A stretch of 64,000 nucleotides of DNA, taken from positions 14,818,001-14,882,000 of the forward strand of contig NC_135358.1 of assembly GCF_051622035.1 (NCBI RefSeq). The letters are read 5' to 3'. This document shows, in pieces, positions 25,601 through 57,170 of the stretch. The notes under the pieces were generated by a model. The model searched no databases. It had not been told where the DNA came from and was given only the letters and a program-made list of their open reading frames with translations. A program made the position numbers and the translations under genes. The stretch's first letter is position 1; each line of letters opens with the position of its first letter. This DNA is from Arctopsyche grandis (taxonomy: Eukaryota > Arthropoda > Insecta > Trichoptera > Hydropsychidae).

Positions 25601-28600
25601 TTTTGTTTGTTTCGGTCAGGTTTCAAGAATAAATATATATGTTACAGTTGAAGTGTATGTATTTTCAGTTGAAATATATTCCAACTGGCGTTTTACGGCC
25701 ATTCATATTCGAATACAATTAAAGTAGTACAAGCGCAAATACACTTTCAACAATGTGCGCCAGTCGTAATATAACAGTTGAGTTTTGACAATTCTGATGT
25801 TTTTACGAATGCTTTAGAATTAAATATTTGCTGGATATTACTAATAAAGGTAATGAATGAGTACCGTATTACGATAACTCTATGAATGTGTTCAAAACAA
25901 AAATGTGACGTTTTCAAGAAAACCTAACCTCTCCATCTTACCTGGCACCAACTTATAGTTGAACTGTATTTTCAGTTGTGATATATTTTGACCAGTTGGA
26001 ATGTAATTCGCCATATGAATCAACTTACGTGGATTAGACGAAATATATTCCAAGTAGTCAAAATATATTATAACTGAAAATACACTTCAACTGTAATGGT
26101 AGTTGATACCAGGTTAGATGGAATATATTCCAATTAGTCAAAATACATTACAACTGGAAGATACACTTCAACTGTAACATAAATATATATGTAGCGCTAG
26201 TGTCGCCATACATTTCCTAACCTTTGCGCCTTTGGAGAAAGAAAATGTTTGCCGTTTTTCTTGATATTCTAGTGAATCTATAGCAGTATTTTTAATACAT
26301 CCAGTTGAATCTTATATGAATACATTGACTTTTGCTATAGTGCATTTTTATAGTAGACTTTTCGTAAGTATACGATGTCTTGTGTAAAATGTTTAGTGTT
26401 GAGACGATTCATCATAAAAAGTGCCATAAAGCGATGATGACAGTATCGTGTGCTGAAGCGTTTCAGACATAAGGGAGGACAAGCCATTATGGAGCGGTAA
26501 CATGCGTTTCGACATGGTATTAATTTAGATCACACGATAGGAAGCTCGTTAATGGGCGAGCGCTTTCGCTTTTGCATAGAAAACGAGCCAAGGTTGGAAA
26601 TTGTGCAACGCGAGCAGCAAACTTAATAATAATAAATAATTATTTCGCAAAATGCCGGGAAACACCTTCTGATATAATGCCCATTCAATTTATGAATATT
26701 CGTGCGATGTATAATAATAATAATCTCACGACCATTATTTGCCGTCGAGTCAATCAACCAAGAAACAATAACAAAACCGATCAAACCAACGACATCAAAA
26801 AGTTCATTGTTGAATTTGAACAATGCGTTTTTCATTTTTCAGATATCAATTGATACGTGCCAGGCCATCACGCGGTACAGTAGCTCGAGGCCTCACTTGG
26901 AAGAAGACTGGCGCATCAGTTACATCACACCTGAGCATGAAGTCCAACAGTACGGTGGGACATTCAGGGACGGTCGCAGTGCCAACGAATACCCAGCACC
27001 CCAACTTCCATGGGAAGAAGCTTTGCGTCACAGTGTGTATTTGACACTAGTCCGTGAAAAGATAGACCAACTATTAACGAAAACCGGTGGTTATACCCAC
27101 AACACTGAAACGCAAGAAGAAGACGACATAAACCAGTGGCAGAATATAAGAAGAGCGCCATTTAGGGCGAACAGCAAAGAGCGGGGTCCTATTTTCGGAG
27201 ATATAGCAATAATTTCCAGAGGTAAACTTATCGAAAGTCGAGAAGGGCTTTTGTTCGTCGAAGACGAAGATGTGAGGGATTGTATAGAATGTCATTTATA
27301 CAGTGCGAGATCGAATGAATTACAAGCTGAAAAGACTCTTGGGAGGGTTTGCCGAGGCTCAAACTGTGCAAACAAAAATATAAGAGCTCTGTGGACAGTT
27401 AGAAGAATAAGACATAGAAACTACAACGATAATGAATCGCCGTTTAGATATGAACTGATGTTTTCGATAGCGGCAGCTAAATTAGGAAGCAGTAGTAATT
27501 TGAATTACAATTCACCATCACAAACCTTTACAATTTCCGAAATAGACAAACCGACTACTAGACCGGAGAGATACGAGAGGAAAAAGTATATTCCAGTGGT
27601 GGATAAATCATCGGCAGAAACGGAAGAATATAACAAAAAACACTATGTAACATACGAGAGTCAAAAACCGTTCATTTATAGCGATGAACATGTTGGAACT
27701 CCACATCAATTAAGTAACCCTCACAAAGCAAGCGACACGCGCACAGAACGGACGTACTGGGTACACAGAAATATTGATCACCGACATCAACCGAAATCAA
27801 ATCACAAGATTCACTTTCCCGATAGCTATGAGAAAATTTTAAATCCTCCTTTGAATACCGGTGAAATATATTTGGAACAAAACCACAAGTCGCAACAAGC
27901 TTACTTTGGTAACAATGATTTTATTCAACAGAATGTAAAGAATCGTGGAAATAAAAAATACGAAAGTAATGACAAAGTATATACAGAAACAGACACTGAA
28001 CAGATTCAAAGTTACGAAAAAAACCAAAAATTACCAACAATAACGCATTTACACCATCATTATTATTTGGACGACAAAGGAATACCAATACTAAAGTTTC
28101 CAAGTGAAAATAAGCATAATCACGAAACCCATTCTTCAAAATTGGATAAAAACTTTGTGCCAAAAATCATAAAAATTCCTACAAATATACAGAGTCAAGC
28201 TACGCCTCCGCAAACAAATGTATATGAATCAAATGGTAGCAATTTAAGTCCAATCACTTCAAATATATATCCAAATCCAGCAACAGTAGCAATTTTTATA
28301 CCGGAATTAGAGCCAAGAGAACGTGGAAATATTACACAAAGTACCAAGTTTACAACAAATTCAAACTATTTAACCATGACAGCTAGACCAACTACCCTGC
28401 AAATGACGTTATTGAGCAGCAAGATGAATAGAGTAAGGCCAACTAAGCCATTCAGACCGAGTCCAGAAGAAATAAAAATAAGATTTTCTGAAACAGATCC
28501 CCTCTATCCACCGACTACGAGTACTCCTTTGTCATACATAACCGAATCTCAGATTGACACAACGTATTTACAATCTACACAAAATCAGAATACAAATGAA

Positions 28601-31600
28601 ATACTACAATTTTCATCCACACAACTTCCAATCGAATTGGAAACATTTAAATATACTATGGGTACCGTTTCCGAGAGCACTCCATACGAAAGTGTAGAAA
28701 CCTCGCGTTTCACTGAAAATACACAATCCCAAATCGAGAACAGTTCTACAAATGAGCAAGAAATTCATGCGGAGACAACAACAACAGAAAAAATTCTAAT
28801 TGTACTGCCCGATGAAAGTTTCACCACAAGAAGATCAGTAACCAGACATTCCAATACAGCATCCAATACTAAAGAACATGAAAACCATTCAACGAGAGCA
28901 ATGGAACGAAAAAGGATCGAGAGGCCAACTAGAAAACCACTAATAAGAAGAGTCAAATTACAAAAAAATTTTAGTGAATTAATAAACGCACAACTGCCAC
29001 CCCCAGATAAAGCATCTGGAACAACATTGCCATACACAACTACTCCTGTGACGCAACCATCATTAGAAAATAACTTCAAACCGGAAGACACAAGTAAACA
29101 TGAAATTTCAACAAACACACAAAATGTTGTAAATGGTGACAGGCATATTGCAGTTCGGAACAGGACGAATTTCGTACCACGGAATCCTCGAGCAAAATAT
29201 CAACGAAAAACAAGTAACTGGACTATCAGAAAATCTAAGCCCAGAGTAAACATACACCAAAGGGAAACTACTACAAAAGAAACAACTTCGATTAAAAATG
29301 TTGATAATGAAGAGGATAGTGTTGCGAATACGAACAATATCCAAACCACAATTCACTTACAAGAAGATACAACAAAACCGATCACAACTTTCGTTACTGA
29401 TAATGATGAAGAAATTATTGGAAAAGTTATGAATGCGACTGAATTGAATGAAAGTCTGATGGATAACAATTCAACAAATATATTTGTGAGTGAAATATTT
29501 GAAAAGACAACAGCCTTTGAAGATAGTCAGACTGAAAGCACAATGTTAATTCCCACTGACAATAACGATGATAATGAAACCACCGCATCAACGATGAATG
29601 ATTTAAATAAGGAGACTACATATTTAACATCGTCCAGTTATAACACTAGCAATACCGCATTCGAAGATGTGTTTACACCGTTAACTAAAAAAAGTATAGT
29701 GACATCGATTAGTTTAAAATTAGGAAACAAAACTAGACCTTACATTTCTTCTACACGTTCACCAAAAAATAAAAATAAAAATAAAGAAAAATCGCCAGAT
29801 GATGATAAAATAACAGCAAAGGATCTTCTGAAAGACTTCGATTTAAAAAATGCCAAGATCGCGACAATTTCAGAAATTAGTTCAGGCAAATCCGACTTTA
29901 CAATATATCGAGCCGAAGAAACGTCCCAAGATCAAAATTTACAAAATCAAAATTTTGATAACATAACAGAGCATATAATAAATCATGCAAAATTTGTAAA
30001 TGTAGTGACATTGAATACAACAACATGAGTATGTATGTAATTATTTAATAGTGATATTAAACAGTGTAAATAAATAAGCGAAGTGAAGTATACATAGAAG
30101 AGCCTTGTAAAAAAGACGAATATAAGTGGACAGATGTAATTATTAGTCATATGGAATGGGACATGTACCATAGAAGATATGTAATATAAGTGTAAAAGGA
30201 TAGCATATGTTTATCGAAAAATAAAATCATGAAATTTATATGTATTAAAATTACCTGCTCCCTCCATTGTGTATTTGTATTTTGGCTCAGGTTTTTCAGG
30301 TATCAGTGCAGCATATGATTCCGGCATCATCTCTTTAATTCTTTGATGATAAGACAATCTACAAAAAAATAAGAGTGCATAAATAAATATTTCGTAGTTC
30401 ATATGAAATTTAAACAAATTGAAATTAAAAAATTACCTCAAAGATTTCAGCAGAGTTTCTCTGATAAACTTTGGTCTAGGATGCTCAGGATTCAATTGCA
30501 AGCATGAATCCCAGTCTTCCCACGACCATCTAAATTGGAAGTTACTCAAATGGTAGGAAAACCAGTTCACAAATCTGCAGTAAAAATAAATAAATCAGCA
30601 CTCAATTCAATCATAATAAATTAAATATGTAACTATGTATGTAAATACCTATCAAAACAGGACGTATTCATAGAATCTATTCTCATGAAAAGTATTTCAG
30701 TCGCCTGTGCCAATACTTGAGGCATAGTAGAAGGTTGCAACTTGCAGAGTTCGATAAGAATAGAACCATAACATACTTCCAAATATCGAGGCACCGGCAT
30801 GTGGAAAAGCTCGGCAAATATCATCTCCACAATGCAATAATCAAGAGGAATTTTCGACTTGAAAGGAAAATATAACAAATGAGCTGCGCACTCCTTTCTC
30901 TCCATGTGATACATTTCCACAATCGAATGCAAATGTTCTTCAATTAAAAAGCGTTCAATGGAATGGGCTCCGGGTAAAACTGGCCCTTCAGGACAATCGG
31001 TATAATCGAACATTCTAAAAACAACCCATGGCATAGGATATACAAAGCTGTCTTGATGTGGAGGCGGAATTATAGTCGGTAAGTTGTGTTGTAAAGCCTC
31101 GCACAGAACCGAGTCGAATGCTAAATAAGGCCGAGGAATATGTTTCTCTGCCCAATTGTCCGACTTGAGCTTTTTTATTTGGGCCCAAAGACAATCGAGA
31201 TATTCCTCTTGAGGATGAGGCGCGTCCACAGACCACACCCTCAGAGCGTTGTGGTGTTTTTTGCTCCGCTTATTCAAGAACACTTCAATACTGACGAGAA
31301 GGTGCTCCAATTGGGCTTCCTTTTTCTCATACAACTCTCGACCGACCCATGGAAGGGTGCAAAGAACGGCAAAGACATACCAGTCTTTTCTGACTTGCGG
31401 CACGCTATCTTCGTTGGAAACGTCAACCAAGTTTTCCAACAGCGTTAACAAAGACGACGCGGCCAACACGTGACAGTTGACCAAGTCGGCAATGAAACGC
31501 AATGAATATCGAGCAATATCCCATTTGCAACTTTTGAGATTTTCTTTGAACGTCTTTACGATGTAATCAACGAATTCACCGCCAAAGTTGAAATTTTTGG

Positions 31601-54400: not shown

Positions 54401-54774
54401 ACAGAAAACGTTTTGAAAACAATTAAAGAATATAAGAAACAGGCGAGTATTTCACACGTACATTCGTTTAGTTTTTGTACTTATACTGAAATGTTTTTTT
54501 ATTGAAGCTTTATTTTTTTTAAATCTAATAGGGATACGATAATTTACCAATTTGTATGGCTAAAACTTCAATGTCTCTCACGGGAGATGCTGCAGTCAAA
54601 GGAGCTCCTACAAACTTTATTTTGCAAATAAACGATATATTTTTATCAGCTGGAGCTGGATTTATTGTTCCTATGGTAGGCGATATATCTAAAATGCCTG
54701 GATTACCCACAAGACCAAGCATATATGATATCGATTTCAATATTGAAACTCAGCAGATAGAAGGATTGTACTAA
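48410..54774 (+). CDS. pug: C1-tetrahydrofolate synthase (MTHFD1-type, trifunctional)
   Basis: It interconverts one-carbon folates: methylene-THF dehydrogenase and methenyl-THF cyclohydrolase in the N-terminal third, then ATP-dependent formyl-THF synthetase. Exons: 48410-48491, 48851-48923, 49010-49208, 49290-49426, 49562-49796, 49891-50002, 51537-51762, 51871-52044, 52118-52283, 52365-52668, 52964-53181, 53507-53717, 53832-54084, 54157-54442 and 54532-54774. Total 2919 nt, 972 residues. Seen: catalytic [13 protein letters not shown]-site [17 protein letters not shown], the synthetase P-loop [32 protein letters not shown] and the C-terminus [15 protein letters not shown]. The first 35 residues are Arg/Lys/Leu-rich without acids until residue 29, like a mitochondrial leader. 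A second in-frame ATG at 48874 would give 937 residues, matching cytosolic MTHFD1. The intron after 54442 starts GC, not GT. Confidence 0.95.
50323..51250 (+). pseudogene. Jockey-like LINE 3' fragment
   Basis: The frame reads [20 protein letters not shown], then KSYKLLGFI and [11 protein letters not shown], the segment after the reverse transcriptase fingers and palm in jockey-clade LINEs. It resumes at 50816 with [20 protein letters not shown] and ends in a T-rich 3' UTR and an (AAAAT)n tail (51230-51250). One in-frame stop and a foreign insertion interrupt it. It sits in pug intron 6. Confidence 0.75.
50584..50815. mobile_element. Hairpin insertion within the LINE
   Basis: It splits the LINE reading at about 50583/50816. 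The right half is an inverted repeat: ACAAGAGGAACAGGCTTTTC (50733) against GGAAAAGCCTGTTCCTCTTG (50789). The left 140 bp matches 22045-22190. No coding content. Confidence 0.6.
51251..51395. repeat. AT-rich short direct repeats
   Basis: Repeats of AAGTAGATATTA and AATAATCGTAAGAAATAT follow the LINE tail. AAGAAATATAAGTAGATATT also precedes the LINE at 50277, so this may be an expanded target-site duplication. Confidence 0.5.
52705..52932. mobile_element. MITE in pug intron 10
   Basis: The ends pair as ATGAGCTGTTATATTCGAAA on the left and ATGAGCCATTATATTTGAAA in reverse complement from the right. About 34 bp of arm continues into GCGGCATAAGTCCA/GTGGCGGAAGTCCA. Non-coding, 228 bp. Confidence 0.65.
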
Positions 54775-54917: not shown

Positions 54918-54934
54918 AATAAATTCAATTTATT
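54918..54934. terminator. Palindromic poly(A) signals for pug and Mettl15
   Basis: AATAAATTCAATTTATT gives AATAAA on the plus strand (54918-54923) and on the minus strand (54934-54929). It lies 144 bp past the pug stop and about 90 bp past the Mettl15 stop, so both convergent genes could use it. Confidence 0.55.
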
Positions 54935-55024: not shown

Positions 55025-56116
55025 CTATTTTATTTTAACTGCGGCTCTTAATCTGGCTGACCGAGAGCGTGGATTGTCTTTAACCTCTCCGTCAGATGGC
55101 ACAATAACATGTTTTGTTAAAGAATGCCAACATTTGTGTATAAACGTCTCGGCAAATTCCTTTTGATAAACCATTGAATAATCACAGTATTTGAGGGGAA
55201 GTGCGTTAGCGACGTTTCCAGTGATGTGTCCAGTAATGTGCCTCTTTACAATGGTATCTTCAAGTGAGTGAAAAGCTATTGTGATCAGTCGTCCGCCAAT
55301 TTTAAGATATTGACTAGCAATATGCATCCCTTGGTTAATTTCGTTGAGTTCGTCATTGACAAATATTCTCAAAGCTTGAAATATCTTAGTAGCGTTGTGT
55401 GCAGGTCTATTCAGCATGTCAAATCTTACTTCGTCCTCACAAATACTATCAACCAATTCACACAACTCTTTAGTAGTGTTTAAGTTTCTGAATAGGTACC
55501 TTGACTCAATTATGGCTCTAGCAATTTTTTTGTAGTTTTTTTCCTCTCCATATATTTTAAAAATTCTTCCAAGATCATCCTCTGTTCCTCTGGCTAATAT
55601 GTCCCTAGCAGTAAATGAGTCTGGAAATCTGTCCCCATCCATTCTCATGTCTAACGGTCCGTCTTTACTTACTGAAAATCCTCTATTTGCTGTGTCGAAT
55701 TGCATAGATGAACAACCAAAATCAAACAATATACCATCTATTGTATTTTGATAGATTTTTTTGGACCGCAGCAAATCAGGCAATTCAGAAAATTTTCCCA
55801 ACAAAGGTATTATTTTGTTGGGATAACTTTCAGCCATTTCAATAGCTCTCTCATGGCTCACTTGATCTCGGTCTAAAGCTATAATAGTAACATCATAATT
55901 TTCATCCAAAATAGATTGCGTATGTCCACCAGCCCCGAAGGTCATGTCTATGATTGTTTGTTTGTTTTGTGGTTTTAAATACTTGATAACTTCATGTACC
56001 ATCACTGGTACATGTAATGGTCTCTCATCAACTTGCACTTGGGTCGACAGGTATCTGCGAATTCGACTATAAGAGAATAAACGATTTTGCTTATTCATAA
56101 ATTTAAAAATATGCAT
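55025..56116 (-). CDS. Mettl15: METTL15, mitochondrial 12S rRNA N4-methylcytidine methyltransferase
   Basis: It belongs to the RsmH/MraW family; the animal mitochondrial member methylates a cytidine in the small-subunit rRNA. The coding region is one exon of 363 residues. Motifs in order: HVPVM (~35), SAM-binding DMTFGAGGHT (~57), LFDFGCSSMQFD (~131), RGFSVSKDGPLDMRMD, FQALRIFVNDEL, IAFHSLEDTIVKRH (~292) and the C-terminal NPRSRSARLRA. The N-terminus (MNKQNRLFSYSRIRRYLSTQ from Met7) is Arg-rich without acids, fitting a mitochondrial presequence. Its ATG lies 12 bases after the Uqcc2 stop and in the same frame, so the two probably share a transcript. Confidence 0.92.
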   Translation of the reverse strand: MHIFKFMNKQNRLFSYSRIRRYLSTQVQVDERPLHVPVMVHEVIKYLKPQNKQTIIDMTFGAGGHTQSILDENYDVTIIALDRDQVSHERAIEMAESYPNKIIPLLGKFSELPDLLRSKKIYQNTIDGILFDFGCSSMQFDTANRGFSVSKDGPLDMRMDGDRFPDSFTARDILARGTEDDLGRIFKIYGEEKNYKKIARAIIESRYLFRNLNTTKELCELVDSICEDEVRFDMLNRPAHNATKIFQALRIFVNDELNEINQGMHIASQYLKIGGRLITIAFHSLEDTIVKRHITGHITGNVANALPLKYCDYSMVYQKEFAETFIHKCWHSLTKHVIVPSDGEVKDNPRSRSARLRAAVKIK

Positions 56117-56128
56117 GATGAAATTATT

Positions 56129-56867
56129 TTAGTCTCTATTGAATAGTTTTGATATCAATCCTCTATCGTCTTTTTTCAGGTATTCTAGCGATTCATTAGA
56201 AAGTAATAATTTGCACTCTTCAGCTGTCAGACCGGTGGATGAATACGGTTTGTTTCTTTTGTATGTATTTGCGTAAGAATTATCGGAGAGATTCTTTAAA
56301 GATTTATATTGCTGATCACAATATTTAGGATCGCCGTTGAATTGTTCAGAATTGAACGCAATCTTCACACACTCTCTTATACGTTCACCGATGTCCCTGA
56401 AAATAAATACCATATAAATTTATATAGTATATACATTTATTATTTATATAACTTCGGTTAATTGCGAATGTATATACAATGATATTAAAAATATCAATAT
56501 TACATGTGATACACATATTTATTTACACTTTTTTATATGATAATCTCAAGGGAGTACAGAATGATTTTAAAATCACCTTCCTAAAATGCAACTATTATTC
56601 AGTACATAGCTGTGTAATTTTACACTCTCAAAATTTAACTAAACGAATACAAATATGTATAGCTTTATAAAAAAATATGTGAATACCGAAGGTTAAATGA
56701 TTTTTAAAGTATCTTACTATATTAGATATATGTATTCACAGTTTACAGCTTTCATATATTCAACGATATTGTATTTGATAGGTTATGTACCTTCCAGATT
56801 TAGTAGGTTCGAGTGGCCACCGCTCCAACAAGCGCATGAAATCTCTGTAGCGGGAAGCGCTGTTCAT
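56129..56867 (-). CDS. Uqcc2: UQCC2 (Cbp6/MNF1), complex III assembly factor
   Basis: A small mitochondrial protein that works with UQCC1 in cytochrome b synthesis and early complex III assembly. Two exons, 56867-56791 and 56396-56129, join in phase 2 and give 114 residues (human 126). The N-terminus MNSASRYRDFMRLLERWPLE and the following GRDIGERIRE match the family pattern SRYRRF...WPV...KRGRDLG. Later TGLTAEECKLLLSNESLEYL corresponds to the human [20 protein letters not shown]. Exon 1 is too short to be seen without splicing logic. The stop TAA is followed by only four codons before the Mettl15 ATG in the same frame. Confidence 0.88.
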
Positions 56868-57065
56868 TGCAACACCAGCTACTTTATTCAACCACTTTCA
56901 TCCACTTGACTGCAGCTAGTTGTGCAACTGGAAGCCGCAATTGACGGCTACAATCCGCACGCGCCGCACCTGTCAACTCGACCTTCTCACTACATATTAC
57001 ATATGTACTATTTTAGTCCATTCAATTTTCTATAATCCCAAAACGATCAACACCATGAGAAAACT

Positions 57066-57170
57066 GGTTGACCGAGTTTAGGGTGTGACCAGTTTTAGGG
57101 TGTGACCAGTTTTAGGGTGTGACCAGTTTTAGGGTGTGACCAGTTTTCTCGTGACCAGTTTTAGTGTGAC
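57066..57170. repeat. Tandem repeat GTGTGACCAGTTTTAGG
   Basis: About four units of period near 19 bp, then degenerate ones (CGTGACCAGTTTTAGTGTGA). Upstream of Uqcc2; no function seen. Confidence 0.85.

Follow-up and report, generated by a model that had tools for sequence, protein, structure and literature searches.

UQCC2 and METTL15 as a candidate dicistronic locus in the trichopteran Arctopsyche grandis

How METTL15 is expressed when its start codon lies only 12 nt beyond the stop codon of UQCC2 is the question raised by this locus of Arctopsyche grandis. Within the window, by which we mean the whole stretch of 64,000 nt that was analysed, both genes are read from the minus strand, and UQCC2 encodes a protein of 114 aa in two exons. 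Exon 1 (56791..56867) opens with the ATG at 56867-56865, holds codons 1-25 together with two bases of codon 26, and is followed by a GT..AG intron of 394 nt and 22.6% GC (56397..56790) and by exon 2 (56129..56396), which ends with the TAA at 56131-56129. The gap (56117..56128) consists of four sense codons, AAT AAT TTC ATC, and leads to the METTL15 ATG at 56116, which stands in the same frame as the UQCC2 TAA; the first-pass annotation had described this junction, and all its elements were confirmed on the minus strand. The METTL15 coding sequence (55025..56116) is intronless, with 363 codons and a stop at 55027-55025. Downstream, a formate-tetrahydrofolate ligase gene (MTHFD1-like) runs in the opposite direction; its last frame ends at 54774, leaving 250 bp between the end of that gene and the METTL15 stop.

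The identities of both genes are well supported by profile matches. The spliced UQCC2 protein belongs to the UQCC2/CBP6 family, matching PF20180 with 65.8 bits (cut-off 27.9, E 5e-18) over profile positions 1-89 of 90, and exon 2 alone scores 35 bits. No convincing sequence match to UQCC2 was found in the PDB, where the best of two matches at E up to 1 was chain SC_2L4HC2_23 (E 0.011). METTL15 belongs to the METTL15/RsmH family, with 280 bits against PF01795 (cut-off 27, E 3.4e-83, positions 3-308 of 309), and its closest PDB matches, the best of seven, are animal mitochondrial METTL15 chains (E 6.8e-89). In a search of the 475.7-Mb assembly in which the best candidates were scored, METTL15 was found in one place and UQCC2 in two, namely its own two exons, of which exon 1 was matched alone; no second copy of either gene was found among these candidates, and the profiles PF20180 and PF01795 each match one place in the assembly. 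A METTL15 pattern scan of other genome contigs gave 58 matches, 9 of which encode relatives, all in records with bacterial titles. Both proteins have reported mitochondrial roles: UQCC2, together with UQCC1, binds the exit tunnel of the mitoribosome and activates cytochrome b synthesis, according to the excerpted text of PMC4391031, and METTL15 makes m4C839 in 12S rRNA, its depletion impairing mitoribosome assembly, according to that of PMC8348895.

The real feature of the locus is the tight spacing of two intact single-copy genes and not their shared frame, which carries no weight because it has a one-in-three prior at so short a gap. A 12-nt gap between single-copy genes on the same strand would not be expected by chance in a genome this large.

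Between the first base of UQCC2 exon 2 and position 55034, neither of the canonical poly(A) hexamers, AATAAA and ATTAAA, occurs. Recoded sequence over the same span contains a mean of 3.1 of these words and lacks them in 2% of draws, a comparison confined to this locus; coding DNA may avoid canonical poly(A) words generally. Weak variants are present, among them AATAGA (56140) and ACTAAA (56133) at the UQCC2 stop. On the minus strand, AATAAA occurs at 55034, where it overlaps the last METTL15 codons, and at 54929..54934, where it is the first canonical hexamer past the METTL15 stop, while the copies in the UQCC2 intron (56523 and 56441, same strand) are consensus words only. Since neither hexamer is found between UQCC2 exon 2 and the end of METTL15, the two genes likely share one 3' end.

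Considering the short gap, the single copies and the missing canonical poly(A) hexamer between the genes, the locus is best explained, on indirect evidence, by one dicistronic mRNA. In this respect the first-pass annotation is supported, as it proposed two cistrons on one mRNA and listed reinitiation, a promoter within exon 2 and read-through as possible outcomes; leaky scanning was missing from its list. We propose, with a probability of roughly 0.5, that UQCC2-METTL15 is a dicistronic locus in which METTL15 is reached mainly by leaky scanning. In the mechanism that we infer, a spanning mRNA would arise from one promoter upstream of UQCC2 and end at one poly(A) site at or beyond the METTL15 end. 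The majority of ribosomes would initiate at the UQCC2 AUG, and some would pass this AUG and a few weak internal ones to initiate at the METTL15 AUG, with more UQCC2 than METTL15 as the predicted outcome.

Under leaky scanning, AUGs should be scarce before the second start, as they are here. The spliced sequence contains three before the METTL15 start: the UQCC2 start, a further in-frame AUG (codon 11) and a single out-of-frame AUG. The last of these is the sole out-of-frame ATG in the coding sequence of UQCC2; its 3-codon ORF (ATG AAT CGC TAG; 56185..56196, minus strand) closes 68 nt upstream of the METTL15 AUG. This one out-of-frame ATG compares with 4.2 expected under synonymous codon permutation (P 0.013) and 4.0 expected under codon-usage sampling (P 0.024), where P is the fraction of draws with one or fewer out-of-frame ATGs (1.3% and 2.4%). 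The controls came from open frames 150 aa or longer in the window and in 20 neighbouring 10-kb stretches, a total of 51. Thirteen were discarded as low in complexity; the remaining 38, some of them overlapping, some unverified as genes and METTL15 itself among them, yielded 61 stretches, each 114 codons long. A P of 0.013 was reached by none of these, the lowest value being 0.070. One or no out-of-frame ATG was seen in seven control stretches, all with a lower expectation, and in none of the 41 stretches with an expectation of at least 3.5. UQCC2 is unusually AUG-poor, as judged on this one sequence.

The start contexts were judged by eye against the fly optimum CAAA-ATG, as given in the available excerpt of PMC9681215. 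The UQCC2 start context, TGCA, agrees with this optimum at one of four positions, but its G at -3 means that it is not a poor one. METTL15 starts in the context CATC, with two of four positions in agreement and A at -3; the difference between the two is small. The intervening AUGs stand in poorer contexts (TTTC, 0/4, and TCTA, 1/4). These contexts fit modest leakage. An upstream ORF of five codons, MKVVE (56884..56901, minus strand), ends 16 nt before the UQCC2 ATG; it is relevant only if transcription starts above 56901, in which case it may complicate scanning, and ribosomes that reinitiate late after it could contribute to bypass of the UQCC2 start. Further up, at 57070-57165 of the window and just upstream of the UQCC2 promoter region, short head-to-tail copies of a ACTGGTCACACCCTAAA-like unit were noted by eye. 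The junction shows no stable fold (z 0.38, with 132 of 200 shuffles folding equally well) and the locus no Rfam match, and there is, therefore, no sign of a structured IRES.

Arrangements of this kind are known, if uncommon, in insects. They are frequent in flies: Drosophila melanogaster has 159 annotated dicistronic pairs, and gaps at its polycistronic-only loci range from -34 to 319 nt (PMC4528330); the two conserved, same-strand coding regions described here, 12 nt apart, fall within that range, although the fly loci rest on transcripts and UQCC2-METTL15 on genome sequence. A close parallel may be drawn with the Drosophila pair sloth1-sloth2, for which the excerpts of PMC9681215 describe a pair of nuclear genes whose mitochondrial products are linked to complex III, a stop-to-start distance of 5 nt (against 12 nt here) and reporters that respond as leaky scanning predicts. 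According to the same source, however, sloth1 and sloth2 encode short paralogous peptides (79 and 61 aa), and a cDNA spans them both, whereas UQCC2 and METTL15 are unrelated proteins of 114 and 363 aa read from the genome. Green-algal bicistrons, as excerpted from PMC11291117, also use leaky scanning past the first ORF, and AUGs added before the second ORF lower its output; these, however, belong to another kingdom and were tested by mutation. A likeness of content is offered by Rsm22-Cox11 of Schizosaccharomyces pombe, which joins a methyltransferase-like factor of the small mitoribosomal subunit to a respiratory-complex assembly factor (PMC12375894 and PMC4381221, in the parts available); it is a true protein fusion of other genes, whereas a stop codon parts UQCC2 from METTL15. 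The insect Su(var)3-9/eIF2gamma locus likewise keeps two unrelated genes together, long retained and lost in aphids, but shares its sequence via alternative splicing and not as tandem ORFs, as far as the excerpt of PMC1435931 goes.

The foremost alternative, which we consider unlikely, is that METTL15 is transcribed from a promoter of its own, located in the UQCC2 intron or exon 2, into a monocistronic mRNA with an exon 2 leader, the spanning transcript being minor. The first-pass annotation had left no room for a separate promoter unless it lay within UQCC2 coding DNA, which is too strict, as the 394-nt intron could hold one. TCAKTY-type sites are present in the intron at 56698 and 56562 (consensus words), TATA-like words at 56669, 56537, 56450 and 56426, and a TATAAA at 56308 in exon 2, but words of both types are expected by chance in AT-rich DNA, and TCAKTY is absent from exon 2. 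A leader formed by exon 2 would contain one AUG only, and the scarcity of AUGs in exon 2 would suit such a leader as well as it suits leaky scanning. Moreover, fly 3' cistrons that have a monocistronic mRNA usually have a downstream promoter (PMC4528330). An internal promoter would, however, leave unexplained that UQCC2 has no canonical poly(A) hexamer.

A dicistronic mRNA could alternatively be translated by termination and reinitiation, with ribosomes that finish UQCC2 restarting 12 nt on at the METTL15 AUG. The very short gap suits this route, but reinitiation does not usually follow a first ORF as long as 114 codons and, moreover, does not need the AUG scarcity seen in UQCC2. Reinitiation is said to be commoner when the gap is a few bp (excerpt of PMC11291117); the tested bicistrons of like shape nevertheless used leaky scanning, as reported in the available parts of PMC9681215 and PMC11291117. 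Owing to the scarcity of AUGs and to the insect (sloth1/sloth2) and algal precedents, leaky scanning is favoured over reinitiation, which appears quite unlikely.

It is improbable that the two genes share a promoter and are separated by alternative splicing, in which a donor in the 5' leader would be joined to an acceptor within UQCC2 exon 2 to give a METTL15-only mRNA. A donor-like CAG|GTGCGG is present at 56969, and a CTAAT..TAG branch/acceptor-like word ends at 56185, on the same bases as the 3-codon ORF, with no ATG between it and the METTL15 start. These are, however, consensus words only, and when UQCC2 is recoded, an acceptor word of this kind appears in 13% of the sequences. Similar alternative splices are known in flies, yet downstream promoters are the usual route there (PMC4528330).

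Low-level read-through of the UQCC2 stop, giving a fused precursor that would be cleaved in mitochondria at the METTL15 presequence, had also been put forward in the first-pass annotation. Its observation of a shared frame is correct, but a fused product is the weakest of the outcomes that it listed and, in our judgement, very improbable. A TAA followed by A, as at the UQCC2 stop, is a strong stop that terminates well, and METTL15 has an AUG of its own followed by a basic, presequence-like N terminus; the identity of frames on which read-through depends would arise by chance in one case in three. An internal presequence is thinkable, given that METTL15 residues 1-25 contain six K/R and no D/E, and fission yeast Rsm22-Cox11 is such a fused precursor, cut after import (PMC12375894 and PMC4381221, as excerpted). 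We give almost no credence to an assembly error that made neighbours of genes not adjacent in the animal, as two intact conserved frames flank the junction, each gene is found once and the locus is carried by a 37-Mb contig.

If leaky scanning on a dicistronic mRNA is taken as the preferred reading, UQCC2-METTL15 is likely a new pair within a known, uncommon insect arrangement. No paper naming both genes was found in a search confined to the two names UQCC2 and METTL15 themselves; fly UQCC2 is not named in the available excerpt of PMC8455400, and an annotation of this pair may already exist for some insect. Should both proteins come from one mRNA, an activator of cytochrome b synthesis and a mitoribosome assembly enzyme would be expressed together, with translation alone setting their balance. 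Such a locus would place a mitochondrial dicistron with a full-length enzyme as its second cistron beside sloth1/sloth2, and knocking down either gene by RNA interference in such insects would hit the other too. Joint expression of UQCC2 and METTL15 makes sense, yet that is no evidence of coupling. It is possible, though doubtful, that the single mRNA represents a conserved insect 'mito-operon', in which a product ratio set by leaky scanning would tune complex III assembly with mitoribosome maturation and selection would keep AUGs out of UQCC2.

Several other features of the assembly and of the window were observed. A run of mitochondrial genes lies at C1:36081147-36088758, within a 42.7-Mb nuclear contig, in the order tRNA M -Q I, ND2, W -C -Y, COX1, L2, COX2, K, D, on to ND3 and F, and a second, inverted cluster of ND2 and tRNA genes adjoins it; this run reflects a recent insertion into nuclear DNA or else a join made during assembly. 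A tRNA order M -Q I ahead of ND2 is of a type that occurs in some sawflies, which gives no more than a lead. TTAGG arrays are abundant genome-wide, with 31317 and 20972 overlapping five-unit matches on the two strands, and also occur far from the end of contig C1. Of two insect protein profiles tried on the assembly, Gloverin gave a partial match of 32 bits, and Apis_Csd matched neither the assembly nor the controls. Within the window, an open frame of 1110 codons on the plus strand (26696-30025), rich in Thr, Ser and Asn and with no Pfam match, perhaps encodes a secreted or structural protein. A GC-rich repeat array at 1512-2189 of the window is open in several frames on both strands.
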